From assembly GCA_017398805.1 (NCBI GenBank), contig JAFQEZ010000037.1:1-38335 (forward strand): 38,335 nucleotides of DNA. The letters run 5' to 3'. This document shows positions 13,707 through 38,335 of the stretch, piece by piece. Position 1 is the first letter of the stretch. Every line of letters begins with the position of its first letter. The notes beneath the pieces are model-generated. The model saw only the letters and a program-made list of their open reading frames with translations, did no database searches and was not told the DNA's origin. This DNA comes from Bacteroidaceae bacterium (GTDB lineage Bacteria; Bacteroidota; Bacteroidia; Bacteroidales; Bacteroidaceae). The position numbers and the translations under genes are program-made.

Positions 13707-15046
13707 ATCAATGCCTCCTTGATAATTTCGCTCACCGTGGGGTGGGGGAATACAGTGCGGCGCAACTGCTCTACTGTGAGGCCGTTGGTTATTGCCATAC
13801 ATGCAGCGCAGATGAATTCGCTGCAGGGGTTGCCCAGCATGTGCACGCCAAGCACCTTGCTGTCGGGTGCAACCAGAATCTTGCATAGTCCCATCTGTCC
13901 TTCGTTCTCTGCAACGAATCGGCCGGCGTATGTCATAGGCAGTTTGTGCAGGGTATATTCCACGCCCTCTTTTGTTGCCTGCTCCTCGGTAAGGCCCACG
14001 CTGCTTACCTCGGGGTTGGTGTATACCACGCCGGGGATAGCATTGTACTCCATACGGTCCTCAATACCAAGCATGTGGTTCACGGCAACCTCGGCCTCGC
14101 GGCTTGCGGTGTGCGCGAGCAATGAAAAGCCGGTGACATCGCCTGCTGCGTAAACGTTGGGTAGGCTTGTCTGCATGACCTCATTCACCTTTATTCCGCG
14201 CTCAACCTCTACAGCGATGTTCTCAAGGCCGAAGCCTTTGAGCACAGGACGTCGGCCAACGCTCATCAGAATCTTGTCACCCTGTACCTGCAGTTCATTG
14301 CCCTCAATGTCGGTGTAGTGTACGGTGTTGCCCTCAACGCGTGTAACCTTGCATTGCAGGCAGAACTTCACACCGCGCTTTGCATATATCCCGCGTAGCA
14401 TCTCGCTCACCTCCTTGTCCATTCCGCCAAGAATTTCGGGGAGCATCTCAATCACGGTAACCTCTATTCCAAGGCTGTTGAAAAGGCTTGCGAACTCCAT
14501 TCCGATGACGCCGCCGCCAATCACCACAAGACTCTCGGGCGCCTGGGTCAGCGCAAGCATCTCGCGGTTGGTGAGCACCGCCTCATTGCCTTCTACACCG
14601 GGAATAGGCGGAACAAAAGCCTCGCTTCCGGTGCAGATGAGCAGCTTTGCTGCCTCGTATGTCTGCTCGCCACAGCTGATGCAAACGGCATTCGCATCAC
14701 CGCTGTTGATGAATGCCTCGCCGCGCACAACCTCAACGTTATGCGCCTCCATCTTCATCTTTATGCCGGCAACCAGCTTGCGCACAACCTTTGTCTTGCG
14801 GTCGGCCATCTTCTTGTACTCGTATGTTACATCGGCAGCTGTGATACCGTACTTCTTCCCGCCTGTAGCGTGGTCATACATCTTTGCACTGTAGAGCAGT
14901 GTCTTTGTGGGTATACAGCCCTCGTTGAGGCACACGCCACCAAGCTCACGCTTCTCGAAAAGAATCACCTTCAGACCTCTTGCGCCTGCATTCTCGGCAG
15001 CCACATAACCGGCAGGGCCACCGCCAATAATTGCCAAATCGTACAT
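13703..15046 (-). CDS. lpdA: Dihydrolipoyl dehydrogenase
   Basis: A 447-residue flavoprotein disulfide reductase. The FAD Rossmann motif GGGPAGYVAAENAG is at 8-21, and the redox disulfide is Cys39/Cys44 in GGVCLNEGCIPTKTLL. The NAD-binding motif VVIGGGVIGMEFAS lies in the middle, and AGDVTG marks the second FAD contact. The catalytic His435-Glu440 pair sits in HPTVSE near the C-terminus. It reoxidises dihydrolipoamide of 2-oxoacid dehydrogenase or glycine cleavage complexes, passing electrons to NAD+. No E1/E2 or gcv genes lie beside it, so the partner complex is not shown. It starts 16 bp after the upstream exported protein and could be co-transcribed with it. Confidence 0.95.
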   Translation of the reverse strand: MYDLAIIGGGPAGYVAAENAGARGLKVILFEKRELGGVCLNEGCIPTKTLLYSAKMYDHATGGKKYGITAADVTYEYKKMADRKTKVVRKLVAGIKMKMEAHNVEVVRGEAFINSGDANAVCISCGEQTYEAAKLLICTGSEAFVPPIPGVEGNEAVLTNREMLALTQAPESLVVIGGGVIGMEFASLFNSLGIEVTVIEMLPEILGGMDKEVSEMLRGIYAKRGVKFCLQCKVTRVEGNTVHYTDIEGNELQVQGDKILMSVGRRPVLKGFGLENIAVEVERGIKVNEVMQTSLPNVYAAGDVTGFSLLAHTASREAEVAVNHMLGIEDRMEYNAIPGVVYTNPEVSSVGLTEEQATKEGVEYTLHKLPMTYAGRFVAENEGQMGLCKILVAPDSKVLGVHMLGNPCSEFICAACMAITNGLTVEQLRRTVFPHPTVSEIIKEALM

Positions 15047-16346: not shown

Positions 16347-16361
16347 AAACAACGTTTTGTT

Positions 16362-16443
16362 ATCGACGAGTTTTGCAGCAACAGGTCAAACGTAGCATAG
16401 CCGTAGGTTATGCCGTTTGGGTTGCGAAAAGCAAAACGAATCA
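16362..16443 (-). repeat. 82-bp covarying hairpin element, copy F
   Basis: The - strand copy is nearly identical to the one at 25766-25848. It has CTCG-type borders, outer helix GTTTTGC/GCAAAAC, then GCAAC/GTTGC, AACG/CGTT and GCATA/TATGC around a loop. It sits between two genes on the - strand. Confidence 0.75.
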
Positions 16444-16460
16444 ATGACCTTTTTTTTGTT

Positions 16461-16590
16461 ATCGACGAGTTTTGCAGCAACAGGTCAAACGTAGCACTCC
16501 CACCCCTCCGCCAGTAAACTGGCACCTCCCCTCAGGCAGAGGAGGAATTTAACTTATGTCGTTTGGGTTGCGAAAAGCAAAACGAGTCAA
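16461..16590 (-). repeat. Covarying hairpin element, copy G, with apical insertion
   Basis: Same element and orientation as copy F, 17 bp away. The apical loop is replaced by about 58 bp (about 16497-16554) that begins CTCCCACCCCTCCGCCAG and ends GGAGGAATTTAACT. The insert has its own hairpin (CCTC...GAGG) and looks like a separate intergenic repeat nested in the loop. Confidence 0.7.
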
Positions 16591-16618
16591 TGATAGTGCA
16601 AATATAGAATGACAAAGT

Positions 16619-22375: not shown

Positions 22376-22739
22376 TTTTTAACTCATTTTGATAACTTCT
22401 TCTCAATCCACTTAGTAATTGTGCAACAATGTTTATTTGTGCTCTGATAACTGTATATTTGCTTTCAGTGATATATTCAAGGTCTAATGCAACCTGTGAT
22501 TGACTAAGCAACTCCATTAGTGAACTAAAGGCAATTTCTACAAAATGAATTTTATCTTTTAGTGTTGAACGGCTTGTTCCTTCAGCAATATTAGATGTTA
22601 CAGAAATTGCAGAACGTCGTATTTGGTCGCAAAGAGCATAGCGCTCCTCAATAGGGAATGCTTTAATTTCATTATAAATAGTTATAACAAGTTTACGAGC
22701 TTCAATATATGCATTAAGTTTCTCAAAAGCAAATAGCAT
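22365..22739 (-). CDS. Four-helix-bundle protein of the S23/23S rRNA intervening-sequence family
   Basis: A 124-residue protein beginning MLFAFEKLNAYIEARKL at 22739; a start six codons earlier would lie in repeat sequence. The family pattern is clear: FEKLNAYIEARKL, IYNEIKAFPIEERYALCDQI, then RRSAISVTSNIAEGTSR (the most conserved block) and a final helix with LLSGLRRSYQNEL. Members form small helical bundles, first noted as proteins encoded in 23S rRNA intervening sequences and common as free-standing genes in Bacteroidota. The molecular role is unknown. The gene differs from its neighbours in being AT-rich and flanked on both sides by period-7 tracts, which fits a mobile or recently gained cassette. 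Confidence 0.85.
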   Translation of the reverse strand: MLFAFEKLNAYIEARKLVITIYNEIKAFPIEERYALCDQIRRSAISVTSNIAEGTSRSTLKDKIHFVEIAFSSLMELLSQSQVALDLEYITESKYTVIRAQINIVAQLLSGLRRSYQNELKTEH

Positions 22740-22758
22740 AACCTTCACCTTATACATT

Positions 22759-22891
22759 ACACGTTACACGTTACACATTACACCTTACACCTTACACCTT
22801 ACACATTACACGTTACACATTACACATTACACGTTACACGTTACACCTTACACGTTACACATTACACCTTACACGTTACACATTACACATT
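22759..22891. repeat. Nineteen-unit heptamer array ACACNTT
   Basis: Nineteen perfect, uninterrupted units of ACACNTT, preceded by one degenerate unit (ATACATT). The variable fifth base is G 7 times, A 7 times and C 5 times, never T. The array begins 19 bp upstream of the start of the four-helix-bundle gene and ends before the hut terminator. It is where that gene's promoter or leader would be expected. Confidence 0.9.
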
Positions 22892-22932
22892 ATTTTCTGC
22901 GAATATAATACTTTTAGGCGAATAGTCGGTAT

Positions 22933-25710: not shown

Positions 25711-25765
25711 AATATCTGTTATGTTGGTTAGTCGTTCTTTTGCTGTTGCTTCTTGCTTTCTGTCA

Positions 25766-25848
25766 TTGACTCGTTTTGCTTTTCGCAACCCCAACGGCAT
25801 AACCTACGGCTATGCTACGTTTGACCTGTTGCTGCAAAACTCGCCGAT
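25766..25848 (+). repeat. 82-bp covarying hairpin element, copy E
   Basis: Helices from outside in: GTTTTGC/GCAAAAC, GCAAC/GTTGC, AACG/CGTT, GCATA/TATGC, loop about 9 nt. Borders are TTGACTCG and CTCGCCGAT, followed by AACAAAACTTTGTTTTGTCA. It lies in the transcribed hutU-hutH gap; the remainder of 25711-26145 holds copy D, a dispersed repeat and a period-7 tract. Confidence 0.8.
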
Positions 25849-25887
25849 AACAAAACTTTGTTTTGTCATTCTATATTTGTACTGTCA

Positions 25888-25969
25888 TTGACTCGTTTTG
25901 CTTTTAGTGCACCGCAGGGCATCACTTTTAGCGATGCTGCCTGCGACGTTCACTGCAAAACTCGTCGAT
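25888..25969 (+). repeat. 82-bp covarying hairpin element, copy D
   Basis: Tandem to copy E, starting 122 bp after it and sharing its borders and outer helix GTTTTGC/GCAAAAC. The inner helices differ but still pair: AGTG/CACT, CGCAGG/CCTGCG, GCATC/GATGC. The loop is TTTTAGC-like. Confidence 0.8.
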
Positions 25970-25984
25970 AACAAAACTTTGTTT

Positions 25985-26099
25985 TGTCATTCTGAGTGCA
26001 ACGAAGAATCTCTTCTTTCGTGTTTCTTGAGATCCCTCATGTTCATTCGGGATGACAAGCTCGCGTTGTTAGATGCTTCGCTTCGCTCCAGCATGACAA
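25985..26099. repeat. Dispersed GTCATTCTGA repeat cluster in the hut operon
   Basis: Contains a forward copy (GTCATTCTGAGTGCAACGAA, then GAATCTC), an inverted GAGATCCCTC...GGGATGACA copy, and a GATGCTTCGCTTCGCTCCAG half. It directly continues the 3' border of hairpin copy D. Confidence 0.7.
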
Positions 26100-26102
26100 T
26101 GT

Positions 26103-26137
26103 CCTTTCTCCTTTCTGCTTTCTCCTTTCTGCTTTCT
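26103..26137. repeat. Period-7 tract after hutU
   Basis: Five heptamers: CCTTTCT, CCTTTCT, GCTTTCT, CCTTTCT, GCTTTCT. It ends 8 bp from the hutU stop codon. Confidence 0.8.
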
Positions 26138-26145
26138 CTCAGTTT

Positions 26146-28161
26146 TTATTTATTCTCGTTGAATACTCTTTCAATAAGTTCCTTGTCGGCAAGGTTAGGC
26201 ATTGTTACCTTGAGCAATGGTGTGCGCTCCATTTGGCGCTTGATGGCGAACATCGCACCCTCGTTGCGAGCCCAGCTGCGGCGTGCTATGCCGTTGTTCA
26301 CGTCCCACAGAAGCATCTCTTCGATGTGGCGTGCCGAGTCATCACTGCCGTCAATTACCATGCCGAAGCCGCCGTTCATGACCTCGCCCCAGCCTACGCC
26401 GCCACCATTGTGGATAGATACCCAGGTGGCTCCGCGGAACGAGTCGCCTATGACGTTATGTACGGCCATGTCGGCACAGAACTGCGAGCCGTCGTATATG
26501 TTCGAGGTCTCGCGGTAGGGGGAGTCTGTTCCCGAAACATCGTGGTGGTCGCGTCCGAGTACCACGGGTGCCGAAATCTCGCCTCGTGCAATGGCTTCGT
26601 TGAAGGCGAGAGCAATGCGTGTGCGGCCCTCGGAGTCGGCATAGAGGATACGCGCCTGTGAACCCACGACAAGCCTGTTCTGCTTTGCCTCGCGGATCCA
26701 GTGAAGGTTGTCTGCAAGCTGTCCGTGAATCTCTGCCGGAGCCTCGGCGAGCATCTGCTCAAGCACCTCGGCAGCAAGGCGGTCGGTTGTCTCAAGGTCA
26801 TTCTCGTTGCCCGATGTACATACCCAACGGAAGGGACCGAAACCATAGTCAAAGAACATAGGCCCCATAATGTCCTGCACGTATGAAGGGTAGCGGAACT
26901 TGCCGTCTGCGGCAAGGATGTCCGCCCCTGCGCGTGATGATTCAAGCAGGAACGCGTTGCCGTAGTCAAAGAAATACATGCCGCGTGCCGTGAGTCTGTT
27001 GATGGCTGCCACGTGACGGCGCAGTGACTCCTGCACGCACTCGCGGAAGCGTTCAGGCTCCTCGGCCATCATGCGGTTACTCTCCTCATAGCTGTAGCCC
27101 ACAGGGTAGTAGCCTCCCGCCCATGGGTTGTGCAGTGATGTCTGGTCGCTTCCCAGGTCTACATTCATCTCCTCATCGGCAAGACGCTCCCACAGGTCGA
27201 CTACGTTGCCCACATATGCGAACGATACAATCTCCTTCTTTTCGACAGCCTCTTTTATTCGTGGTATAAGCTCATCAAGCGATGAGTGTAGCTCATCCAC
27301 CCAACCCTGCTTGTAGCGCTTCTCGGCTGCCGCGATATTGATTTCTGCTGTCACGCTCACCACGCCCGAAATGTTTCCGGCCTTTGGTTGTGCGCCCGAC
27401 ATTCCGCCCAATCCTGCGGTCACGAAGAGCATGCCCTTGAGGTCGTTTTGCCCAGGCTTCATGCGCTTGCGTGCGGCGTTCATTACGGTGATTGTTGTGC
27501 CGTGCACAATGCCCTGAGGACCGATGTACATATAGGAGCCGGCAGTCATCTGTCCATACTGCGATACACCCATTGCGTTGAAACGCTCCCAGTCGTCCTG
27601 CGAAGAGTGGTTGGGGATTACCATGCCATTGGTTACGATTACACGCGGAGCATCCTTGTGCGATGGGAACAGTCCTAACGGGTGACCCGAGTACATTACG
27701 AGTGTCTGCTCGTCGGTCATTTCGGCAAGGTACTTCATAGCCAAACGATATTGAGCCCAGTTCTGGAACACTGCACCGTTGCCTCCGTACGTGATAAGCT
27801 CGTGAGGATGCTGTGCCACTGCCTTGTCAAGATTGTTTTGAATCATTAGCATTATTGCAGCAGCCTGACGTGAGCGTGCAGGGTACTCGTCGATTGAGCG
27901 TGCATACATTTCATAGTCGGGACGCAAGCGGTACATATATATACGTCCGTACTGCTTCAATTCCTCAAGAAACTCCGGTGCAAGCTCTGCGTGGTGCTTC
28001 TCGGGGAAGTAGCGCAGTGCATTCGCGAGTGCCAGTTTCTTCTCCTCGTCGGTTAGGATGTCTTTGCGCTTTGGTGCATGGTTGGCACTCTTGTCGTACT
28101 CTCTCTTCGCAGGCAACACATCGGGTATTCCTGCAAGAATATCTTTTTGAAAGTCGGTCAT
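26146..28161 (-). CDS. hutU: Urocanate hydratase (long form)
   Basis: A 671-residue urocanase; the long form is usual in Bacteroidota, whereas the Pseudomonas type has about 555 residues. I start it at 28161 (MTDFQKDILAGIPDVLPAKR). The open frame reaches back to 28275, but those 38 codons translate the dispersed repeat. NAD-binding and active-site blocks include TAGLGGMSGAQPKAG, FDYGFGPFRWVCTSGNENDL (Cys in the position expected for the catalytic region) and SIHNGGGVGWGEVMNGGFG. It uses tightly bound NAD+ to hydrate urocanate to imidazolone-propionate. Repeat-filled gaps of 584 and 435 bp separate it from ftcD and hutH, yet gene order and orientation fit one operon. Confidence 0.93.
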   Translation of the reverse strand: MTDFQKDILAGIPDVLPAKREYDKSANHAPKRKDILTDEEKKLALANALRYFPEKHHAELAPEFLEELKQYGRIYMYRLRPDYEMYARSIDEYPARSRQAAAIMLMIQNNLDKAVAQHPHELITYGGNGAVFQNWAQYRLAMKYLAEMTDEQTLVMYSGHPLGLFPSHKDAPRVIVTNGMVIPNHSSQDDWERFNAMGVSQYGQMTAGSYMYIGPQGIVHGTTITVMNAARKRMKPGQNDLKGMLFVTAGLGGMSGAQPKAGNISGVVSVTAEINIAAAEKRYKQGWVDELHSSLDELIPRIKEAVEKKEIVSFAYVGNVVDLWERLADEEMNVDLGSDQTSLHNPWAGGYYPVGYSYEESNRMMAEEPERFRECVQESLRRHVAAINRLTARGMYFFDYGNAFLLESSRAGADILAADGKFRYPSYVQDIMGPMFFDYGFGPFRWVCTSGNENDLETTDRLAAEVLEQMLAEAPAEIHGQLADNLHWIREAKQNRLVVGSQARILYADSEGRTRIALAFNEAIARGEISAPVVLGRDHHDVSGTDSPYRETSNIYDGSQFCADMAVHNVIGDSFRGATWVSIHNGGGVGWGEVMNGGFGMVIDGSDDSARHIEEMLLWDVNNGIARRSWARNEGAMFAIKRQMERTPLLKVTMPNLADKELIERVFNENK

Positions 28162-28745
28162 GGTATTATGGTTTTGGTCTGTTCTTTTGTTTCGTTTCTC
28201 GTAGTTTTGTTCTCGTTTCTTGAGATCCCTCGTCGCTTGCGCTCTGTCGGGATGACAAGTCCGCGTACTTGTCATCCTGAACGTATGTGAATTATTGTAT
28301 TAAGCGAGTGTAACATGAATTCATTCTATGTTACTCTACGAGCGTTACAATAATCGCCGAAGGCAAGGATCTCTTCTCTCTTCGCGCAGTTTTAGATGCT
28401 TCGCTTCGCTCCAGCATGACAGGTCCGCGGTTTTGTCATTTCGAACCGAAGGGAGACGTGTTGTTGAGGGCTTGCCCGAAAAAATCTCTTATTCGCAGTT
28501 TTTGAGATTCCTCGTCGCTTCGCTCGCTCGGAATGACAAGTCCGCGTTCTTGGGCGGACACGTCGGTACCGCCCCTACAGTCGGCATAACAGTGCTGTTG
28601 TTTACACGTACTTGTCATCCTGAACGTATGTGAAGGATCTCTTCTCTCTTCGCGTTGTTTTGGGATGCTTTGCTCCAGCATGATAATGTCCGCGTTTTTG
28701 GGCGGACACGCCGGTACCGCCCCTACAGTCGCAATGACAATCCGA
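28162..28745. repeat. Repeat-filled gap between ftcD and hutU
   Basis: These 584 bp contain no gene. They hold dispersed GTCAT-type copies at 28218-28290, 28384-28545 and 28612-28689 in both orientations, separated by GCGTTCTTGGGCGGACA-type linkers. Two near-identical 29-bp units (GGGCGGACACGYCGGTACC, ending CGCCCCTACAG) lie at 28552-28580 and 28700-28728, each with GGGCGG/CCGCCC pairing. I see no promoter for hutU in it. Confidence 0.7.
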
Positions 28746-30455
28746 TTATGCGTTTATCTTGCTTTCTACAATCTCCAGAATCTCTTTCTCGGCCTGCTGT
28801 GCAAGAGCCTGTATCTCGTTGGCCTCGTTTATGAAGCGCTCGGCAACCTCGCGGTCCTTCAAGCCTGCGGCATTAATTTTCACGTTGAGACATGCGCCCA
28901 TGACAGCAGATCGTGCAGCCAATGCACCCACTCCTGCGTCTGATACCGAATTAGGGTTGCCCTCTGTCGCCATTGCGCGTACAACATCGAATGCCTTGTA
29001 GGCAGCCTTCATGGTGCGCAGGGGTACTTCTGTTGCGTACAGAGTTGCCACCTGCATGGCCTCTGCGCGTGCTGCTTTCTCCTCGGGAGTGTTCTTAGGC
29101 ATCGCGAATACATCCATTATCTTGTTGAACGCAGCTGTATCCTCGTCAACCAAGGCAAGCAGTTCGTTCATCACGCTCATGCCGTTCTCGGCCCAGTCCG
29201 AGAAGAACTCCCAACGTTCATCCCATCCGGCCTTGTGTGATGAGAGGTTGGCAACCATTGTGCCCAATGCAGCAGCAAGAGCGCCCATATATGCCGATAT
29301 TGAACCACCGCCCGGTGCCGGAGATTCGCTTGCTGTCTCCTCGGCAAAGCCCTTGCAGGTCATGTCAACCAGTTTCTTTGCTCCTTTCTGATCCTCGGCC
29401 TCAAGCATATACTCTATGACCTTCTCCTCAGGCTTGAACTCCTTGAGGGTAGATAGTCCCATGCTCTCTATTGCTATGCGCACAAGTTCCATTTCGGGTA
29501 CGCCGGTCGATCGGCTCTGCTTGCGCAGGAAGTGACGTCCTGCATCAACAAGAACCTTCTTTGGGACAAGTCCCACAATCTCAGTTCCAGTCACGCGCAC
29601 GCCACGTGCGTCGGCCGCACGGCACACCTCGTCAAAGGCTGTGTGGAGTGGGGTGATTGAGAGATTTGTAAGGTTCATCGATACCTGTGCAATGCCATAT
29701 TCATCAATGAACCAGCCGATAGCCTTGCATGCTTTTAATGTACCGGGTTTCATTACCGGTTCTCCGTTCTCGTCCTTTATTATCTTGCCCACGATAGGGT
29801 TACCTTCGCGCATGGGGCGTCCCTTTTCGCGCACGTCGAATGCAATCGCGTTCGCACGGCGTGTGGATGTGGTGTTCAGGTTATAGTTTACGGCAACAAG
29901 AAAATCGCGTGCTCCAACGGCTGTAGCTCCTGTGCGTGCAATACCCTCGTCAAAGGCGCGTGCCCCGAAATCGGGTTGTTCCTCGGCGTTTGTCATCCTC
30001 TCGGGCAGTGCCTCATATTCTCCTTTGCGGCATACGGCAAGGTTGCGGCGCTCGGGCTTGAATGCCGCGGCCTCATAACAGTAGGTCGGCACGCCAAGCT
30101 CATCGGCAATGCGCTTGGCAAGTGTGCGTGCAAGTTCGGCACACTCCTCCATGGTGATGCCTGAAACCGGAATGAGCGGACACACATCGCATGCTCCCAT
30201 ACGTGGGTGCGCACCCTTGTGCTGGCGCATGTCAATAAGTTCTGTCGCACGTTTTATTGATGCTACAGCCGCATCCATTACTGCCTCAGGTTCTCCCACA
30301 AAGGTAACAACGGTGCGGTTGGTGGCCTCTCCCGGGTCGACATCCAACAACTTTACACCTTTGATGCTCTCAATGGCATCAGTTATCATCTTCACTATCT
30401 CCATGTTGCGGCCCTCGGAGAAGTTGGGCACGCACTCGATTATTCTCTTTTGCAT
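28746..30455 (-). CDS. ftcD: Bifunctional glutamate formimidoyltransferase / formimidoyl-THF cyclodeaminase
   Basis: A 569-residue fusion. The transferase part (~1-330) begins MQKRIIECVPNFSEGRN and contains MRQHKGAHPRMGACDVCP. The cyclodeaminase part (~355-565) has the glycine-rich ESPAPGGGSISAYMGALAAA block. The first moves the formimino group of N-formimidoyl-glutamate to tetrahydrofolate, releasing glutamate; the second closes it to 5,10-methenyl-THF with loss of ammonia. This ends the hut pathway without a HutG hydrolase and feeds one-carbon metabolism. In many Bacteroidales the two parts are, as I recall, separate genes, while animals have the fusion. It is the first gene of the operon, 40 bp behind a good promoter. 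Confidence 0.93.
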   Translation of the reverse strand: MQKRIIECVPNFSEGRNMEIVKMITDAIESIKGVKLLDVDPGEATNRTVVTFVGEPEAVMDAAVASIKRATELIDMRQHKGAHPRMGACDVCPLIPVSGITMEECAELARTLAKRIADELGVPTYCYEAAAFKPERRNLAVCRKGEYEALPERMTNAEEQPDFGARAFDEGIARTGATAVGARDFLVAVNYNLNTTSTRRANAIAFDVREKGRPMREGNPIVGKIIKDENGEPVMKPGTLKACKAIGWFIDEYGIAQVSMNLTNLSITPLHTAFDEVCRAADARGVRVTGTEIVGLVPKKVLVDAGRHFLRKQSRSTGVPEMELVRIAIESMGLSTLKEFKPEEKVIEYMLEAEDQKGAKKLVDMTCKGFAEETASESPAPGGGSISAYMGALAAALGTMVANLSSHKAGWDERWEFFSDWAENGMSVMNELLALVDEDTAAFNKIMDVFAMPKNTPEEKAARAEAMQVATLYATEVPLRTMKAAYKAFDVVRAMATEGNPNSVSDAGVGALAARSAVMGACLNVKINAAGLKDREVAERFINEANEIQALAQQAEKEILEIVESKINA

Positions 30456-30493
30456 GACTGCTATATATGTTTAATGGTTACAGTACTTTGTAG

Positions 30494-30501
30494 CAAAAGT
30501 A
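30494..30501 (-). promoter_or_regulatory. Putative -7 element of the hut operon promoter
   Basis: TACTTTTG on the - strand (30501-30494) matches TAnnTTTG exactly, 38 nt before the ftcD start. The region ~20 nt further upstream is AT-rich (TTTTAATGG) with no perfect TTTG -33 element, which could mean an activator is needed. Confidence 0.5.
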
Positions 30502-30602
30502 ATACAAATTGTTTACCATTAAAATATAATATGCAAATATTTAGAAGCTGTAATCAAGAAATCAAACAATAACCTTATATGCAAGTTTAGAAATGGCTGG
30601 AC

Positions 30603-31343
30603 TCACCTAAATAATAACCAAATGAATCCTTTGGATACTGTATTATATATGATGTTATTCTGAAGCCCGATGTCAGGTCGGATGTTCTTGAAGTCTATAT
30701 AGCCGCTTTTGTAAGGGCTGTAATAAACTTGCTTTTCAAATGGATTGTCTATACGATTGTTTACCCAGTTTATATTGCTTCCATTAATTTTGCTTATGTT
30801 TTCACCATTGAGGCTGTTTGTAGTACGCTCAGTTTTGACATATTTTGTCGTATCAGGCTGTTCCTCGGGTTGCATTGATGATAATGTGTCGGGGACTATT
30901 GTATCACAGTCGCTCTTGTCATCGGTCAAGAGATTGCTTTTCACATCATAATCGTAATAAAAATATTCCGGATTGTATAGATAGTCTTCTACCGGATCAT
31001 AGGTCTCGTTGTCAGAGAATAATGAAATCAGTAAGGAGATGCCAAAAAGCGCGAGGAAGAATATGAGTATGTTCCTATTCTTTTCCTTCTCTCTTTCTCT
31101 TCTGCTTTCTTCTATGATATGTGCATACGACTTGCCGGTATTATATACGGAAGTGTTCCCTTGGATTCCATCTGCCGTGAATTCCCTGCATGTCTTGGAG
31201 GCTATATCGAAAAACTCATAGGCAGTTTCGTGGTCAAGACTGTATTTCTCTTTTACTCTGCCGATGATATATTCTTTTCTTCCGTCTCTTACCATCAGTC
31301 CCCATATGAACTTGATGATCTCTTCGTGTCTCTCAGTATTCAT
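30603..31343 (-). CDS. Membrane protein of unknown function, paralogous N-terminal domain
   Basis: A 246-residue protein I do not recognise. Residues 1-60 form a helical domain (EEIIKFIWGLMVRDGRKEYI, then DHETAYEFFDIA) that aligns with the N-terminus of the neighbour at 31401-31736. A charged linker (RREREKEKNR) precedes one membrane helix (91-109, ILIFFLALFGISLLISLF). The C-terminal part is probably outside the membrane, tyrosine-rich (YLYNPEYFYYDYD) and of low complexity. Start at 31343, 57 bp after the upstream gene with no promoter of its own visible. It likely belongs with that gene and perhaps the receptor at 31891. Confidence 0.7.
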   Translation of the reverse strand: MNTERHEEIIKFIWGLMVRDGRKEYIIGRVKEKYSLDHETAYEFFDIASKTCREFTADGIQGNTSVYNTGKSYAHIIEESRREREKEKNRNILIFFLALFGISLLISLFSDNETYDPVEDYLYNPEYFYYDYDVKSNLLTDDKSDCDTIVPDTLSSMQPEEQPDTTKYVKTERTTNSLNGENISKINGSNINWVNNRIDNPFEKQVYYSPYKSGYIDFKNIRPDIGLQNNIIYNTVSKGFIWLLFR

Positions 31344-31400
31344 AATAGTTGTTTTTAGTGATTTGTTACGATGAAAAGGTTCTTTTTGTGTCTGTATTGA

Positions 31401-31736
31401 TTATTCAAGCAATCTCCTTATGAGTTTGTATATCGCAAGTGACACTGTTATTATAAGGAGATATTTGATTCCGCCCGGATATGCGTAGAATAAGTATGTT
31501 ACAAATGCAACCAATAATGCAATACAGATACCGTCCACTGTTTTACTTTTTCTCTTCTTACGTTTTATTTCATCCTCAATCTCCTGTACGATATACTCTA
31601 TAATGGCATTTGCCTCTTCGTGACTGGCTCCGTTTGCAATAAGTTCGTCGATGCTTCTCTGTGGTGTGTAACCATAGTCGCATATGAACCTTATGCCCTC
31701 CTTGAAGTGTGTGTTGTTGAATCTCTTGTTTTTCAT
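31401..31736 (-). CDS. Small membrane protein of unknown function
   Basis: A 111-residue protein starting at 31736 (MKNKRFNNTHFKEGIRFICD); upstream codons in frame would cross the promoter. Residues 10-52 form a helical domain (GIRFICDYGYTPQRSIDEL, then GASHEEANAIIEYIV) resembling the first 50 residues of the next protein. A very basic stretch (KRKKRKSK) precedes two membrane helices (about 68-85 and 90-106) joined by a short YPGG turn, so the N-terminal domain should be cytoplasmic. Function unknown. It has its own promoter and heads a two-gene unit. Confidence 0.7.
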   Translation of the reverse strand: MKNKRFNNTHFKEGIRFICDYGYTPQRSIDELIANGASHEEANAIIEYIVQEIEDEIKRKKRKSKTVDGICIALLVAFVTYLFYAYPGGIKYLLIITVSLAIYKLIRRLLE

Positions 31737-31759
31737 AATGTTTCCGCTTTTCTTTGACT

Positions 31760-31767
31760 CAAAGGTA
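31760..31767 (-). promoter_or_regulatory. Putative -7 promoter element for the small membrane protein pair
   Basis: TACCTTTG on the - strand (31767-31760) matches TAnnTTTG, 23 nt before the start codon at 31736. About 19 nt upstream is TTTT, an imperfect -33 element. Confidence 0.5.
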
Positions 31768-31828
31768 GGGCAGTAATGTGACCAATAAAACAGAAAGGTG
31801 TGGCAAAACAGGAAAAAGGGCATAAAAC

Positions 31829-31867
31829 AGCACTATGCAACACCTCTTAAAGGTATTGCATAGTGCT
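31829..31867 (-). terminator. Terminator of the propeller receptor gene
   Basis: AGCACTATGCAA (31829-31840) and TTGCATAGTGCT (31856-31867) are perfect 12-bp arms. The loop has a further ACCT/AGGT helix. On the - strand it follows the receptor stop by 23 bp and is followed by GTTTTATG. Confidence 0.8.
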
Positions 31868-31890
31868 ATGTGTTTCTGATTATCTTCAGA

Positions 31891-34800
31891 TCAATCCTTG
31901 AAGTAACCGATGATGAACCCGGCGCAACTTGACGGGTGCCTGTCGTAGTATTGCTGTACGGCTTCAATGTTCTTCTTCATGTTCTGCTCTACAATGCCAC
32001 GCTCCTTGCGCATATTCTCTCCGCGGTTCGATATTCCAATGAGAATATGGATGTGGTTGTTCTCGATTCTTTCGCCACTTAACAGCAATGCCATAATCCT
32101 TGCATTGTTGCTGTAGTTGCGGCAGTTGCTTGCCGACAACCCGACAAGTGAGAACAGTTCCTGGTCTGTGCCGTTATCTATAACCGGTGCATAGAAGCTT
32201 TCTATCTCTTTGTTAAGGTTCTTGATTATGACACCGGTCTCACTCTTATGCCTTTCCAGTTCTTCCCTTTTTGCCTTCAATCTTGATACCTCATACTCTG
32301 GAATCTCCTCAAGTGCGTTCTCGCTATTCTTAATATCATCAAGGTTCTTGTAGAAAGCATTGACATAGTTGCCGATGTTCAGAATGCATGAGTGCATTGC
32401 AGCTCTGTTGCATGTCAGTTTCATCTCCTTGAGCAGTTCTTTCATCTTTACAGCATCGCCGTTTATGTCGGTGAGTAGTCGGTCGGCATTCCTGAACTCG
32501 CTTATGATATCGTCGTTTACCGTGCCGGCACTGCTCATCTTTTTAATCTCTTCATCAATGAATGTCTTCATTGCTGCACAGTTCTCTGCTGAACCGATGG
32601 AGTCCATTCTTCTCAAAAGCATCTCAAGTGCCTCCCGTTTGTCATTTTCATCGGTTGCTTCCCGGACCTTTCTTATGTCGGCCTTTATGCCTTGGGTGAC
32701 TCCCTTTACAATAACCGCATTTGAGTAGAACCCATCTATCTCCTGTAACTTCTTTTCTGTCTCTTCGCTCTCCTCAAGCCATTTATGGTTCTTCTTTATC
32801 TGCATTGCGGCTTCGGCAAATGACATGCTGCGTCCCGACTCCTTCAATAGCGTCTCAGCATATCCCTTGCCAGCCTTCTTTAAGGTTTTCTTCTGCTCTT
32901 CAAGGAGTCCTCTCGCATCCTTCTCGGTTTGCTCTCGCGTCGCTTCTGCACGTTTCTGCAACGCTTTCACCATGCGTTGCGATTTCCTGCCGCTGCTTAC
33001 GGTGAAATCCTCGACCCTTGTGATGTTGTTGTGGATTTTTTCAACAACGATTTTGCTAAGGAACGGTGACAGGCTTTCAAGGTAATAAAGCCTTTCGAGA
33101 ATCTCTCCTTTTTTACGGTTGAGTCTTTCGATGCTGTAGCGCCTTTTCTCAAGTCTTATTGTGATGAGGATTGCAACAACAAGCAGCGCTAACGCTCCTA
33201 TTATATATAATGTATATTCCCAGAATCTCTCTATTGCAGCAGGTTCGAACTGTATGTTCTTGTGTGGAGATCCGCTTGCAAGCGGCTGGTCGAACACGAA
33301 TACACCGCAGGCCGATCCTGCAAAGATAGTGTTGCCATGAGAAACCACGGCTTCGGGGTTGAACTTTATGTCGGTGTAGTAATCTTTGTGGCTGTTGCCT
33401 TCGGACGAGAAGATGAACTCTCTTATACCGAAATTGCCGACACCATAAACATGCCTGTCATCCGTTATAACCAGACGATAGAAACCGTCTGCCTTTATTG
33501 AATCTCCCCAGTCCGGTGTGTAGACATAGTGGTTTGTGAGGATATAAGGGTCTGCGTCATCGCCTGAGAAAGCAATATCTCTGATGTATTTGAATCTGTC
33601 ACTGCCGGGAATAATGTTGAACCCGTCATTGCCTTTCTTGTATATTCCATCGTTGAGCGTGCTTGCCCAGATATTGCCCTGGTGTGTTGCGAACCTTGTG
33701 ATGAAAGGCCAATTTGTAACTTGTCCCCCCTCTTTATACATCATTATCTTCTCGCCTTTTCTTTCGGGGTCGATATTGATTATGCTGTCACGTATTCCGC
33801 ATAGCAGTCCACCTCCTCCGAATGCCGTTGCATCTTTCTCAATCTCTCCCAACTTTTCAATAGAGAAGGATGCTGCAAGCGAGTTCATGTAGTAGCTGTC
33901 GCCCATTTTAGTATCAATGGTGTAGATGGCATTGCCGTTATCGATAAAATAGATCTGCTTGTCGACAACAGTCAGGTGCTTTATATCGTATCTCTCCGGG
34001 ATATTCAGCATATGCTTGGCATTAAGACCTTTGCCTTCTGTGCTATTTATGTCGCTCCTGAATACCCTGTTGCCGATGAGATAATATATGTAGTCACCGT
34101 CGATGGCTGCCGCACGGGCTTCCCCTGCATTGTTGAATATGTCAAGGTTGTGTGCAATGCCGAAAAGGGCATTTCCGGTAACGAGAACCGACCTGTTTGT
34201 CTGTGGAATGTCCGCTATGATATTGCGGCACTCGGGACGTACATTGCGGCGCAACTCAACCCTCTTGTACTCGTCGGGGTTGTCAAGGTTCTCGTCCTGT
34301 ACAAGATATACATGATCCTTGTTGATGAAGTAGTTTACTCTTGTTTCCGGAACGTAATAGTAGAACTCTGCACTGTGCTCAAGGTGGTACTCGTCCTTTG
34401 GTTTCCCATCGATACCGTATATTTTCAGACTCTTCTCGGTCAAGGCGAATATCTCCTTATCTTTGATTACAACGCTCTTGACCTTCTCATCGATACCGAT
34501 TACGGTGATATTGTCATCCTGCGTGTCGACCTTGAGTACTCCTCCATCGGATGCCGCTACAAGATAACGGTTGTCATATCTCAGGACGCTGTTTACGACA
34601 AACGGCTTCGCAGCCTTCCAATCCTTGTAGCCGTCATGAGGGTATATTCTCTGCAACAAGCCGCAGTCATTGTCCGATACCTTGTAGAAACCATTGGATG
34701 TTCCAACATATACACCTTTTTCGGCAACATGTATGTCATAAGGGGAGTATTTAAAGTCGTTGACCTCAATCCTGTAGGCATTTTGTACCAGCATACTGTC

Positions 34801-35136
34801 ACCGCTCATTTTGGAGCGGTAGAGTCCCATGTTGCGTGCGCCTATCCACACGGTGCTGTCATTAGTACGCCGGTCTTCAACAACGCGGTATATACGGTCG
34901 AACTGCAAGTCGGATGCAATGGTGTCCATGCTATTATAAAGAGGATTATAGCAATAGATAGCACCATCCTCGGTACCTATATAGCATATGTCGCCATTCA
35001 CGGTTATTGATGAAAGTTGCTCGTTGAAAAATGTCTCGCTTTCATTCAGACTTAAACTCTCGCTCTTTTTGCTGCAACCGACAAGGATTATTGTCAGTAA
35101 TGCCGATATACAGAGTTCTATCAGGTGTTTGTACAT
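31891..35136 (-). CDS. Propeller sensor-like membrane protein with cytoplasmic coiled coil
   Basis: A 1081-residue protein. The N-terminus has a hydrophobic segment and lipobox ILVGC (Cys21). Residues ~40-630 are short beta-rich repeats of the ligand-binding propeller type (ICYIGTEDGAIYCYNP, GVYVGTSNGFYKV, NIWASTLNDGIYK, TIFAGSACGVFVF), like those in Bacteroides hybrid two-component sensors. A membrane helix follows (about 640-660, then RLEKRR). In place of a histidine kinase, the cytoplasmic part (~661-1081) is mainly coiled coil (AEATREQTEKDARGLLEEQK). The last ~90 residues (ARIMALLLSG, HILIGISNRGENMRKERG) faintly recall a helix-turn-helix. No kinase H, N or G box is visible. It may be a one-piece transmembrane signalling or scaffold protein; function unknown. 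Confidence 0.75.
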   Translation of the reverse strand: MYKHLIELCISALLTIILVGCSKKSESLSLNESETFFNEQLSSITVNGDICYIGTEDGAIYCYNPLYNSMDTIASDLQFDRIYRVVEDRRTNDSTVWIGARNMGLYRSKMSGDSMLVQNAYRIEVNDFKYSPYDIHVAEKGVYVGTSNGFYKVSDNDCGLLQRIYPHDGYKDWKAAKPFVVNSVLRYDNRYLVAASDGGVLKVDTQDDNITVIGIDEKVKSVVIKDKEIFALTEKSLKIYGIDGKPKDEYHLEHSAEFYYYVPETRVNYFINKDHVYLVQDENLDNPDEYKRVELRRNVRPECRNIIADIPQTNRSVLVTGNALFGIAHNLDIFNNAGEARAAAIDGDYIYYLIGNRVFRSDINSTEGKGLNAKHMLNIPERYDIKHLTVVDKQIYFIDNGNAIYTIDTKMGDSYYMNSLAASFSIEKLGEIEKDATAFGGGGLLCGIRDSIINIDPERKGEKIMMYKEGGQVTNWPFITRFATHQGNIWASTLNDGIYKKGNDGFNIIPGSDRFKYIRDIAFSGDDADPYILTNHYVYTPDWGDSIKADGFYRLVITDDRHVYGVGNFGIREFIFSSEGNSHKDYYTDIKFNPEAVVSHGNTIFAGSACGVFVFDQPLASGSPHKNIQFEPAAIERFWEYTLYIIGALALLVVAILITIRLEKRRYSIERLNRKKGEILERLYYLESLSPFLSKIVVEKIHNNITRVEDFTVSSGRKSQRMVKALQKRAEATREQTEKDARGLLEEQKKTLKKAGKGYAETLLKESGRSMSFAEAAMQIKKNHKWLEESEETEKKLQEIDGFYSNAVIVKGVTQGIKADIRKVREATDENDKREALEMLLRRMDSIGSAENCAAMKTFIDEEIKKMSSAGTVNDDIISEFRNADRLLTDINGDAVKMKELLKEMKLTCNRAAMHSCILNIGNYVNAFYKNLDDIKNSENALEEIPEYEVSRLKAKREELERHKSETGVIIKNLNKEIESFYAPVIDNGTDQELFSLVGLSASNCRNYSNNARIMALLLSGERIENNHIHILIGISNRGENMRKERGIVEQNMKKNIEAVQQYYDRHPSSCAGFIIGYFKD

Positions 35137-35175
35137 ATCTTAATGGTACTTAGTGACTTCTTGTTATTGATTCTG

Positions 35176-35205
35176 CAAAGATAGCCAAAGATTTGTCTTT
35201 ACAAA
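35176..35205 (-). promoter_or_regulatory. Bacteroides-type promoter of the propeller receptor
   Basis: TATCTTTG (35183-35176) and TTTG (35205-35202) on the - strand match both promoter elements, with an 18-nt spacer. The start codon lies 39 nt downstream of the -7 element. Confidence 0.65.
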
Positions 35206-35265
35206 ATATTTGATAAAATTAAGCAATGGTATAGCATTTGGCCTGTGATTCATTTTCTTTGCGAA

Positions 35266-35412
35266 CTTGTCATTTCGACGATAGGAGAAATCTCTTTATT
35301 CGTATTGCTTGCAGTTTTTGAGACCCCTTACGTTCATTATTCGCAAAGGCTCATCAAAGATTTCGCGATATTTTTGAGATCCCTCGTCGCGATGCTCTGT
35401 CGGGATGACGGG
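35266..35412. repeat. Dispersed GTCATTTCGA / GAGATCCCTC repeats
   Basis: A forward copy (GTCATTTCGACGATAGGAG, then AAATCTC) and an inverted copy (GAGATCCCTCGTCGCGATGC ... CGGGATGAC) lie in the 711-bp gap 35137-35847. The rest of the gap is described in the next entries; no gene is supported. Confidence 0.65.
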
Positions 35413-35458
35413 CTCGCGGTTTAGTGGAGCTTATATAGAACTCAGGTTTTTTTATGCA

Positions 35459-35491
35459 AGAAAAGGGAACTGCGTTGCAATCCCCTTTTCT
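35459..35491 (+). terminator. Terminator-like hairpin beside hairpin element C
   Basis: AGAAAAGGG (35459-35467) pairs with CCCTTTTCT (35483-35491), and TGTTATTTTT follows on the + strand. No + strand gene precedes it, so it is either bidirectional for the right-hand gene or part of the repeat unit. Confidence 0.5.
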
Positions 35492-35507
35492 GTTATTTTT
35501 ATCGCCC

Positions 35508-35588
35508 TTGGCTCGCTTTTCTGTTCGCATCCCGCAGGGCGTGACTTCGCCACTCTGCCTGCGACTAATTGCTGAAAAGCTCACCGAT
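35508..35588 (+). repeat. 82-bp covarying hairpin element, copy C
   Basis: Outer helix GCTTTTC/GAAAAGC, weak second helix GCA/TGC, then CGCAGG/CCTGCG and a short GGCG/CGCC helix. Borders are TTGGCTCG and CTCACCGAT. Confidence 0.75.
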
Positions 35589-35591
35589 GCA

Positions 35592-35674
35592 TTGGGTTCG
35601 CTTTTCTTTCGTGACCCGCACGGCACAAGTTGCACCGGTGCTGCGTGCGACTAATCACTGAAAAGCTCACCGAT
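35592..35674 (+). repeat. 82-bp covarying hairpin element, copy B
   Basis: Directly follows copy C. Helices: GCTTTTC/GAAAAGC, GTGA/TCAC, CGCAC/GTGCG, GCAC/GTGC. It is followed by AGCAAAAAGTTACTTTACAA, the same sequence that follows copy A. Confidence 0.8.
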
Positions 35675-35701
35675 AGCAAAAAGTTACTTTACAAGTACCT
35701 T
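35675..35701 (-). pseudogene. Duplicated 3' tail of the secreted-protein gene
   Basis: These 27 bp are identical to 35839-35865, which contains the last codons (KVLVK, stop) of the secreted-protein gene plus 9 bp after it. Only the tail is present, directly joined to hairpin element B. It looks like the remnant of a second gene with the same C-terminal sorting tail, or a partial duplication. Confidence 0.6.
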
Positions 35702-35710
35702 ATTTATGTG

Positions 35711-35743
35711 AAGAGAGGGCAACCCTTTGGATTGCCCCCTCTT
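35711..35743. terminator. Terminator-like hairpin between elements B and A
   Basis: AAGAGAGGGCAA (35711-35722) pairs with TTGCCCCCTCTT (35732-35743) with one mismatch and a 9-nt loop. There is no strong T-run on either side. Position and composition parallel the hairpin at 35459-35491. Confidence 0.5.
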
Positions 35744-35755
35744 GTTAGTTTGCCA

Positions 35756-35838
35756 TTGGGCTCGCCTTTTTTTCAGCGACCCACGCGGCACCACTGTCGC
35801 GGTGCTTCGCGTGACCAATCGCTAAAAGGCTCGCCGAT
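35756..35838 (+). repeat. 82-bp covarying hairpin element, copy A
   Basis: Helices: GCCTTTT/AAAAGGC, AGCGA/TCGCT, CACGCG/CGCGTG, GCACC/GGTGC, all perfect. Borders are TTGGGCTCG and CTCGCCGAT. It lies 9 bp downstream of the stop of the secreted-protein gene and may help end its transcript. Confidence 0.85.
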
Positions 35839-35847
35839 AGCAAAAAG

Positions 35848-38335
35848 TTACTTTACAAGTACCTTTTTGCCATTGACAATGTAGATACCACCCTCGGTTA
35901 CCTTCTCAAGCTTGCGGCCATTGAGGTCGTAGATGCTTTCGATAGCCTCGCCGTTGATAACTACGTTCTCAACGCCTGTAGCCTTTGTACCGTAGAATGT
36001 CGGGAGTACCATGCCGTCAGAAACAGATTCTGTAACCTTGAATGCGCCTGCAGCAGTGTCGTATACAAGGGTCAATCCCTCACTTACGATAGTTGCTGTG
36101 CTGTTCTCATCCTCGGCGATAGTGATTGTCCAGCTGCTCATTGGAGTGTATGCGCCATTTGAGCTGAGCTTTGGACCGGAAGTGCCATACATTGAAGATG
36201 TGTAGATATAGTTGCCGTTTACATCCTTAATGTAGTATGTTCCTGCCTCAGCAGCCTCTTCCAAGGTGATAGCATAGTATACAGCCTCGGTCAAATCGTT
36301 GCCATCGATTGTTGTCTCAATACCTGGCAGGACACCATTTGCAAGAGGTGCTGCCACGTGACCGTTTGCAGCGAGGAAGTAGCTGCCGCTCTCAACTGCA
36401 ACAGCTCTGTGGTATGTAACAGCCTCGGATATGATGTACTCAGCCGAAGTTGATGCACTCACGTATGTCTTGTCGCCGTATGTAAGCTCCACGACAACCT
36501 TGAGAGTACAGCTGTTCTCGATAGTGATTTCACCGTCGGTCTCCTCATCCTCAACTGTAGGCTCGTTGCCGTCAGTTGTGTAGTAGTATGTAACGTTTGT
36601 CACGCCCTCGATGTCTGCTGTTGCAGAGTGTACATTTACAGTCTGTGCACCAACGTATACACCGCTTGCGAGGTCGATTACCGGAGCCTCGAGTTTGTTC
36701 TCGGCAGGATATACCTTAATATATGTGATGTACATTACACTTGAGTAGTTGCCGCCGTTAGAACCGATAACGAGTTCGTAAACATTGCCGGCAGCCTGGT
36801 TTTCGGCTGCAATCTCGAATGTAGATGTTGCGGCAGTTCCGATGCAAGGTGTACTTACGGCAGTCTCGCCAACATATACGTTCATATCAACATTAGCATA
36901 GCTTGTTCCGCTTGAGTGACCGACAACCTCAATCTTCTCAACTGCAAAACCGAATGCAGGGAGAATAATCTTAGTGCCTGGCTTAGATATATTCAAGAAG
37001 CCCTTGCTGTCATAGATGTAGCTACCGCCGTTTGCAGTCGGGTCTATCTTGATGGTTTTTGCGCCATCAGTGTACTCTCCGGCTGTCTTAATGCTGCTGA
37101 AGTTATTCTCCTCCATAGTCGGGATCTTCCATCCACCGTTTACGAAGTCGAATACAACAGTCTCGTTAAGCGTTGGTTTAGCTGGCTCTGGAGCAACATT
37201 GCCTGTGAGCTCACCATGTGTAAGATTCTTGACACCTGCTGCGCCACAATACTTCTCCAGGCTACCTGTTACAACAACCTCTGCGCGATAGTTTGCCGGG
37301 TTGTCAACAATGTTGAGCTTGTTGCGCAAATCGCCTGAAGGCAACTGGATAACAAGACACTCGGTAACATCGGTTGTGTATGGGTTGTCCGAGATGAGCA
37401 TATTTGTCTTTTTAGTAGCGTCCGCACCAAATGCAGCGCTAGTTACATTGCTGTCAACAGAACCTACGATATAGCCTGTTACTGTAACCTGAGCAGGTGA
37501 CCCCTCGACATAAGCTGCAAGTGCCTCGGTAACATTGTACTCCGGAATTTCAACATCTGGAGCTTCCTCAACAACCTCAACAGCTACAGCCATTGTGTTG
37601 ACATATTTGCTGCTGTTTACGCCAATTGTGTAGCCGGTAACCTTTACAACATCACCTGTAGATGCTGTAACAAGTCCAGTGTTAGGATACTGGATGCTAC
37701 CCATTGCTGTAGTTGCGCCTTCAACTGCCACGTTGTAGTAGCTGCCGTTGATAGTGAGTGTACCTGTGTACTCAACATACTGTATTACCGGTGCAGTCAG
37801 GAATGCATCCAGTGCAGCGCCGTCCATAACAGTAGCTGTAGGATATTCTACAGTTACAGTCTCTCCGGTCTTCTCTACAACAGATGTCTTGGGGAACTGG
37901 AGCAAGCCGCCATAAGTTGTAACAACGCCGTTAACAGTAACGACATCGCCTGCAACATATTCGTGTGCTGCATTCAAGTAAACAAGAACTATACCTGTTT
38001 CGTCCTGTACAAGGAATCCCTTTGAGTATGTTGCAATTACAGTACCCTTGATTGTTGATTCAACGTCCTCGGCAATGTCTGCTATGTTGTCATATTCAGC
38101 AGCAGGCTCCTCAACCTGGAATGTGAAAGTCTGTCCAGCAAACTCCTCGCCGTCCACGCTCTTGATTACACCTGCCGGAATCTCGAATGTGTAAGTACCT
38201 GTCTTTGTTGCAGCAGCATCCAAGTTGAATGTTACCTTGTTTCCTTCAACAACAGCAGTGCTTATCCATGCAGTAGCAGCAACACCACCGTTTGCATCCT
38301 TCAGTTTGATGAATGTTACAGAACCAGTTTCAGTA
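35848..38335 (-). CDS. Large secreted multidomain protein, 5' end outside the window
   Basis: The frame is open to the right edge, giving 828 visible residues without a start codon. Visible parts, N to C: the end of an Ig-like or SwmB-like domain; an OB-fold-like region (STIKGTVIATYSKGFLVQDE, GDVVTVNGVVTTYGG); a second, DUF6359-like OB segment (NVTEALAAYVEGSPAQVTVT, GYIVGSV); a beta-sandwich with SYANVDMNVYVGETAV; a chitobiase C-terminal-like repeat (YYYTTDGNEPT); and a C-terminal tail SIYDLNGRKLEKVTEGGIYI then VNGKKVLVK. The tail resembles Bacteroidota type 9 secretion sorting domains, so surface export is likely. No catalytic motif is visible in the sequenced part. Acidic, Thr/Val-rich composition fits an extracellular protein. 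Confidence 0.85.
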   Translation of the reverse strand, partial: TETGSVTFIKLKDANGGVAATAWISTAVVEGNKVTFNLDAAATKTGTYTFEIPAGVIKSVDGEEFAGQTFTFQVEEPAAEYDNIADIAEDVESTIKGTVIATYSKGFLVQDETGIVLVYLNAAHEYVAGDVVTVNGVVTTYGGLLQFPKTSVVEKTGETVTVEYPTATVMDGAALDAFLTAPVIQYVEYTGTLTINGSYYNVAVEGATTAMGSIQYPNTGLVTASTGDVVKVTGYTIGVNSSKYVNTMAVAVEVVEEAPDVEIPEYNVTEALAAYVEGSPAQVTVTGYIVGSVDSNVTSAAFGADATKKTNMLISDNPYTTDVTECLVIQLPSGDLRNKLNIVDNPANYRAEVVVTGSLEKYCGAAGVKNLTHGELTGNVAPEPAKPTLNETVVFDFVNGGWKIPTMEENNFSSIKTAGEYTDGAKTIKIDPTANGGSYIYDSKGFLNISKPGTKIILPAFGFAVEKIEVVGHSSGTSYANVDMNVYVGETAVSTPCIGTAATSTFEIAAENQAAGNVYELVIGSNGGNYSSVMYITYIKVYPAENKLEAPVIDLASGVYVGAQTVNVHSATADIEGVTNVTYYYTTDGNEPTVEDEETDGEITIENSCTLKVVVELTYGDKTYVSASTSAEYIISEAVTYHRAVAVESGSYFLAANGHVAAPLANGVLPGIETTIDGNDLTEAVYYAITLEEAAEAGTYYIKDVNGNYIYTSSMYGTSGPKLSSNGAYTPMSSWTITIAEDENSTATIVSEGLTLVYDTAAGAFKVTESVSDGMVLPTFYGTKATGVENVVINGEAIESIYDLNGRKLEKVTEGGIYIVNGKKVLVK

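Follow-up and report, generated by a model that had tools for sequence, protein, structure and literature searches.

REPINs, which are made of repetitive extragenic palindromic (REP) sequences and go with the REP-associated tyrosine transposases (RAYTs), are described as dispersed extragenic hairpins with compensatory changes (PMC3116915). The attC sites of integrons consist of a stem, an unpaired spacer, a second stem, extrahelical bases and a terminal structure (PMC2727003). For group IIC introns and diversity-generating retroelements (DGRs), an association is described with hairpins near gene 3′ ends in which pairing counts over sequence (PMC3240598). The subject of the present analysis is an element of ∼85 letters that folds as one hairpin, and that is present in seven copies in a 38,335-nt stretch of DNA from a Bacteroidaceae bacterium (assembly GCA_017398805.1, contig JAFQEZ010000037.1; hereafter the window). 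A further point of comparison is provided by the eukaryotic short interspersed nuclear elements (SINEs), target-primed retroposons that are short, non-autonomous and structured, with variable target duplications and 5′ truncation.

The element resembles each of these in part. Like REPINs, it forms dispersed extragenic hairpins, occurs in clusters and shows compensatory stem changes; unlike them, it conserves internal loops and the sequences TTGAC/GTCGA rather than two REP ends, it has flanking target repeats, and its own genome has no RAYT match. It lacks the REPIN arrangement of a variable spacer enclosed by two highly conserved REP ends in inverted orientation. With attC sites it shares a long imperfect hairpin, a short outer stem followed by an unpaired spacer and a second stem, one-sided bulges, a terminal structure and head-to-tail neighbours, but it is scattered in the chromosome, its terminal structure is conserved and its outer stems are variable. 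No gene cassettes were seen between elements in the loci read, where the 46 linkers were all below 60 nt by selection. The targets of group IIC introns and DGRs are likewise hairpins near gene 3′ ends; the element differs in being only ∼85 bp, and no intron, reverse transcriptase or variable and template repeats (RT/VR/TR) were identified at the loci, where no systematic search was made. With SINEs it has in common that it is short, non-autonomous and structured, with apparent target duplications of variable length and 5′ truncation; it differs in being bacterial and in that the target is inverted at one junction in some copies. Our best explanation, to which the comparison of sequences gives about an even chance, is that we are dealing with a small mobile DNA, non-autonomous and copied into new places by a target-primed mechanism.

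Hairpin structure and covariation

Throughout, the + strand is that of the original prediction, and the S strand is the complement of the + strand in + copies. On the S strand the core of the element reads CGAC...GTC. On the + strand the outermost helix pairs TTGAC with GTCGA(A), with a conserved T.G position, and encloses a 2×2 loop, a 7-bp stem of free sequence and then a 5′ bulge of ∼5 nt. Past this bulge follow a GCRA/TYGC stem, an internal loop CC/ACYWA, a 6-bp stem, a 2-nt 3′ bulge and a 5-bp stem, and by reading the apex is made up of an A.C mismatch, one or two pairs and a triloop. The conserved parts are the internal loops and the outer TTGAC/GTCGA, and the outer 7-bp stem varies most. 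The original prediction had listed seven copies of ∼82 bp in the window, all of which are present, at positions that were right within a few bases. Its four nested helices do covary; the outermost, fifth helix had been missed, and the fifth pair that it assigned to its second helix is mostly unpaired (C.A).

Covariation is found in all five helices, among the copies of the own genome and again in an independent collection drawn from other genomes. In a first alignment of 12 copies, 39 cells were changed on both sides of a pair, compared with 12.2 in shuffles. For the own genome (96 matches, 93 distinct rows) the corresponding values were 562 and 173, with 91% of cells paired as against 28–43% when the partner was slid; for the other genomes (139 matches in named records, 126 distinct rows, which may share some genomes with the relatives numbered G below) they were 715 and 229, with 91% paired as against 25–44%. 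In the larger alignments the rows were placed by the model's structure, which gives that structure an advantage; nevertheless, the drop in pairing with a slid partner indicates that the exact register matters. The covariation is well beyond what the controls give, and the claim that the helices keep pairing while their sequences change holds, as does the wider suggestion of selection or copying acting on structure.

Folding of single sequences was less telling, with z-scores against shuffles of −2.1 to −5.7 as RNA (seven copies) and −0.8 to −3.9 as DNA (six copies). As these values are just moderately beyond shuffles, the evidence for the hairpin rests on the comparison of copies. RNAalifold, run on the model alignment, predicted nine inner pairs and no others, and extension of the outer stem was little above control (a score of at least 10 in 4/149 copies, with 0.5 in the control).

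The kind of pairs present is also informative. In helices 3 and 4 of 129 non-composite copies there were 1363 Watson–Crick, 10 G.T, 7 A.C and 8 other cells, a G.U share of 0.7%, compared with 8.5% in tRNA stems (35 G.U in 413 pairs from 19 tRNAs in element loci; the stems were called by ARAGORN, which admits few non-standard pairs, so that the absence of A.C there says nothing). That covariation is strong and G.U so little used argues, short of proof, that the constraint acts on the DNA or on both strands more than on RNA. Mismatch polarity was weak and leaned to the S strand: G.T and A.C numbered 18 and 49 in one set and 28 and 71 in the other (helices 1–4; one mispaired column omitted, and the two sets may overlap), or 50 and 109 with composite copies and the mispaired column included. 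Around own copies, GC skew (44/66 loci) and coding direction (41/65 loci) both lean against the + strand.

Distribution of the element

A covariance model built from 12 copies gave 99 matches at E ≤ 1 in the 2.7 Mb draft genome to which the window belongs, at least 93 of them at E ≤ 0.001, from 150 scored among 1185 candidates. The search of Bacteroidales that had been proposed, made with a second model, found the family in all 37 sampled genomes of one gut Bacteroidaceae genus (the own genome and 36 others), with 1 to over 70 copies each, and in 0/24 other genomes of the order; in this search no more than 73 candidates were scored for any genome. Among 151 genomes of the family Bacteroidaceae, 13 matched: nine belong to the genus, and the remaining four, of which three are in g54 and one is in g40, have a single copy each; kinship is not shown for 118 of the 138 genomes without a match. 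The named matches listed were mostly Bacteroidaceae or Bacteroidales metagenome-assembled genomes, many of them labelled as from ruminant cecum, colon or rectum; the single matches in unrelated phyla among those listed were taken as chance. No match was found in viral contigs, plasmids or phages, the viral scan being a non-exhaustive one with one exact pattern, of which slightly stricter and looser forms match 30 and 36 of 150 aligned copies. Rfam, which the original prediction had also named as a check, gave no match at gathering score over the window; a search at E ≤ 10 over the 25.7–26.0 kb stretch gave a best E-value of 4. The element was not described in the literature searched, a scope that left out most subscription journals.

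Evidence for mobility

Comparison of orthologous sites shows that the copies are not fixed. The spacer between the urocanase and aromatic amino acid lyase genes (hutU and hutH by reading) has two copies in the own genome and, read by eye, none in 14/16 anchored relatives; G004 has a composite form at the first place and G030 one inverted copy, and two further loci could not be anchored. Behind a Mur ligase gene, murF by reading, an element, truncated copy or remnant is present in 5/25 printed relatives and absent from 19/25, one being unreadable at the gene end. At the 35.5 kb site elements are seen in G033 and, within the stretch printed, not in G004, G020 or G031. The number and kind of units in the 16.4 kb array differ among G030, G020, G005 and G004 (a fifth relative could not be anchored). 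Since orthologous sites are mostly empty, or hold another number, version or orientation, we infer that the element is mobile and not a fixed RNA gene. In the named-genome set, orientation was shared in 46/46 cases of neighbours separated by less than 60 nt, and 0/17 own loci with several copies were mixed in orientation.

Flanking target repeats

The feature that is new here, seen in 37/149 copies, is that the DNA following the element repeats DNA that starts before it. For this test, similar-flank copies were removed to leave 149 flank-distinct ones, and the sequence following the S-strand end (GTC|AA...) was sought within 200 nt on the other side. A direct repeat scoring at least 12 was found in these 37 copies, where swapped flanks gave an expectation of 2.5, and 29 of the 37 repeats start exactly at the element border (1.7 expected). 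The left copy starts 14–155 nt before the element and is preceded by diverse letters. Among own-genome copies the figure was 20/52. In addition, 19/149 copies had an inverted copy of the target between target and element, against 0.8 expected.

Gene 3′ ends

Copies are commoner behind gene 3′ ends than before them. On the S strand, 22/89 own copies start within 45 nt past the stop codon of a long frame, compared with 6/89 on the other side; in other genomes the numbers were 14 and 5 of 89 usable copies. Tandem copies were counted separately in these figures, and frames were called by length only. Overlap with an open frame of at least 110 aa was seen for 11/88 own copies. The genes ahead of the copies include those for a Mur ligase, a galE-like epimerase, glutamate dehydrogenase, an mltG-like (YceG) protein, a DUF3109 protein and proteins ending in GKKVLVK.

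Among 67 copies that have the end of a long frame no more than 90 nt away on the S side, 19 showed an alignment of the gene end to the far flank scoring at least 24, some of these alignments being short or due to a neighbouring element. The duplicated gene ends reach 107 bp for a DUF5013 gene and 81 bp for the galE-like epimerase gene, and some include the stop codon. The two versions of the DUF3109 gene end differ over 15 codons by seven synonymous and no other changes, those of glutamate dehydrogenase over 13 codons by seven synonymous and one other, and those of murF over eight codons by four synonymous and no other. Summed over 16 distinct gene ends there were 40 synonymous and 31 non-synonymous changes, so the coding signature is limited to the clear cases and does not extend to the whole list. 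We read the synonymous differences as a sign that strains probably exchanged gene ends once the element had inserted.

One-sided truncation

A sequence profile run over all element-locus DNA gave 243 full copies after repeats at the same place had been removed. Composites aside, 24 matches lacked the 5′ part of the + strand profile, 7 lacked the 3′ part and 15 lacked both, the last being mostly of the GMP synthase type described below. On reading, a true loss of the 5′ arm was confirmed in 13 copies (Table 1) and of the 3′ arm in at most one (L103), the bias towards 5′-truncated copies with an intact 3′ end that SINEs would lead one to expect; the remaining partial matches proved to be whole copies, divergent copies or copies with masked sequence, and the one in L259 is interrupted by an insertion. 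Matches to one half of the profile that stop close to the apex, most of them composites, were about equal in number for the two sides (19 and 16), so detection is not the cause of the bias. The flanking repeats and this truncation both go beyond the original prediction.

Proposed mechanism

We suggest that the element spreads as copies of it are made at new sites, preferentially on the 3′ side of genes. Its nested hairpin would be the form recognised by the copying machinery, so that the stems stay paired while their sequence drifts. Copying would always begin at the same end, which is 3′ on the + strand, with the target supplying the primer, and would sometimes stop early; rejoining to the target would then duplicate part of it. 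The template may be RNA or single-stranded DNA. A fixed start, a variable end, target repeats of variable length and a preference for gene ends are together what target-primed copying would give, and it is from these that we infer such a mechanism. A more specific version, drawn by analogy and offered tentatively as the less probable claim, is that the element is a bacterial counterpart of SINEs, copied by target priming into gene 3′ ends in a way that would duplicate the end and keep the gene intact, successive insertions stacking alternative 3′ ends. If the target duplications and the one-sided truncation hold in finished genomes, there would be very small structured bacterial mobile elements outside the REP/RAYT, miniature inverted-repeat transposable element (MITE) and integron models, and such elements would remodel the 3′ ends of genes and leave the genes themselves unharmed. 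As the copy number ranges so widely within the genus, a search for the enzyme is testable by comparison.

Several observations weigh against target-primed copying. A strong direct repeat is lacking in 112/149 copies. By eye, about 9 of the 37 left copies follow the element-like ends GTC, GCC or ATC, as the unit between tandem copies would (in L032, though, it is a gene), and about 12 of the 37 repeats fall within simple sequence of the GAAAG or GATTAACG kind. When the query is shifted outward by 30 nt in the same loci, 18/149 copies still score at least 12, which points to a contribution from long repeats as well as from local repetitiveness. Selection against deletions into the gene could by itself bias truncation, and the truncated copy that was inspected for a direct repeat (G005, murF) shows none. 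The synonymous differences within gene-end pairs mean that later exchange between strains has to be invoked, and one pair of copies 61 nt apart is in opposite orientation (L092:1353-1587). G.U is rare on either strand, a poor fit to an RNA template. Finally, the searches with PF01797 and TIGR02249 gave no mobilising enzyme.

Alternative explanations

The enzyme searches bear most directly on the possibility, which we consider real if doubtful, that the element is REPIN- or attC-like, a single-stranded DNA hairpin cut and pasted in trans by a Y1 (RAYT-like) transposase or a tyrosine recombinase. The almost purely Watson–Crick pairing would suit such a hairpin, and dispersed hairpins with compensatory changes are known for REPINs (PMC3116915), just as attC shares the hairpin layout (PMC2727003). 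The Y1 family PF01797, however, has no match in the own genome (87% complete) and matches in only 5/44 genomes of the genus, the controls being positive in 5/14; the RAYT was on this basis rejected as mobiliser for the own genome as assembled. No integron integrase exceeded the TIGR02249 cut-off in 44 genomes, and this candidate too was rejected, although tyrosine recombinase-type genes match the model below cut-off in 43/44. To our knowledge, target duplications of variable length are not expected of either class of enzyme, which counts against both. Of the three classes first suggested, the REP-type mobile hairpin is still the nearest, the element being dispersed as such hairpins are, with the missing RAYT match as its weak point; the attC-like site fares worse, having neither an integrase over cut-off nor cassettes. 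The core sites of attC are GTTRRRY and RYYYAAC, and the ends of the element read by eye GTCAA.. and ..TTCGAC. A MITE of a DDE transposon, for which a fixed short target duplication and the terminal inverted repeats of a parent would be expected, is not supported by repeat distances that vary from 14 to 155 nt.

It is less probable that no dedicated enzyme is involved, and that the hairpin stalls replication and so causes tandem duplication of neighbour plus element, with later deletions and homologous recombination among strains. Close neighbours do lie head to tail, remnants of a second element are found past the second gene end at murF, target and element alternate (T-E-T-E) with a 3-nt microhomology at the mltG-like (YceG) gene, and the local repetitiveness revealed by the moved query would fit; but dispersal to many unrelated sites is left unexplained, and T-E-T sites without a second element are seen, such as L247, where the outer repeat ends at the border. 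A functional RNA or 3′-untranslated-region element (a terminator, stabiliser or protein-binding RNA) selected at gene ends seems improbable. It would account for the stop-codon bias in both sets of copies and for the conserved internal loops, and 12 copies of one flank have a promoter-like TAnnTTTG 10 nt upstream. That box, though, is also above expectation downstream (13, with 4.5 expected) and is therefore not upstream-specific, and the mostly empty orthologous sites, the occurrence in both orientations, the scarcity of G.U and the lack of an Rfam family all weaken the idea of a structured RNA put forward in the original prediction. Least probable by far is that template-switch correction of a quasi-palindrome, rather than selection, makes the compensatory changes. 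This process is described (PMC8794818) and would agree with the very few G.U intermediates, yet conserved bulges and asymmetric loops survive, and in 25 close copy pairs the changes at paired sites were single in 25 cases and both-sided in four.

Variant forms and copies in the window

Table 1. Features of the window and truncated copies elsewhere. Window positions refer to the 38,335-nt stretch, and borders of element copies are those of the covariance-model matches.
Feature	Position or locus	Strand	Basis
Element copy, plain apex	16360..16446	-	model match
Element copy, composite (cassette in apex)	16459..16592	-	model match
Apical hairpin cassette of composite copy, approximate extent	16495..16552	.	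comparison with adjoining plain copy
Element copy, spacer between urocanase and aromatic amino acid lyase genes	25764..25850	+	model match
Element copy, second of spacer pair	25886..25971	+	model match
Element copy, first of three head to tail	35506..35590	+	model match
Element copy, second of three	35590..35676	+	model match
Duplicate of the 3′ end of gene 35848-38223 (AAGGTACTTGTAAAGTAA... on minus strand)	35677..35701	-	sequence; repeat D3
Element copy, third of three	35754..35840	+	model match
3′ end of gene 35848-38223, inverted repeat abutting element	35841..35868	-	sequence
Other dispersed repeat, GTCATTCTGAG...GAAGAATCTC / GAGATCCCTC...GGGATGAC	263-303, 26024-26098, 28210-28271, 28492-28552, 35371-35424		
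Copies without 5′ arms	L097, L294, L007 (twice), L111, L020, L271, L349, L251, L023, L296, L318, L291		

The two copies near 16.4 kb lie head to tail with a 12-nt linker, and the second owes its extra length to a hairpin cassette of ∼50 nt in its apical loop. An apical cassette, with the second hairpin repeat CCTCCTCTGCC...GGCGGAGGGGTGGGAG, is present in 22 own-genome copies. A related-looking cassette in the apex of another copy (G000:C107:6696-6785) shows nested repeats in one loop. The third copy of the 35.5 kb group, read on its opposite strand, starts 7 nt past the stop codon of the gene at 35848-38223.

In miniature copies nothing but the two outer stems is left, and such derivatives stand in tandem with full copies at L011:1451-1487, L041:1471-1557, L182 and L183. 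Copies or arrays are found behind a 435-aa gene in several species (L139, L140, L142, L143 and L149); the gene of L139 has GMP synthase domains by Pfam, and the other four were equated with it by length and ends. Some of the copies behind this gene have an extra hairpin in the 5′ bulge. At L259:2180-3110, ∼830 nt without a clear gene split the element at its apex, with a TGACTTT direct repeat at both ends, and before position 6172 of L241 the database record has a masked run of N within an element copy. Copies at L103:1501-1700 and L048:200-400 adjoin the 3′ part of a tRNA-Glu-like sequence, and in L103 the flank repeat runs into an apparently complete tRNA gene. The sequence TATATTTG, ten nt upstream in 12 copies such as those of L014 and L011, represents one inherited flank and resembles the Bacteroidota promoter box. 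The other dispersed repeat of Table 1 crowds the element-bearing spacers of the window. A microsatellite-like array with the 7-nt unit TTACACR occupies 22718-22906, and related arrays are found at 13468-13717.

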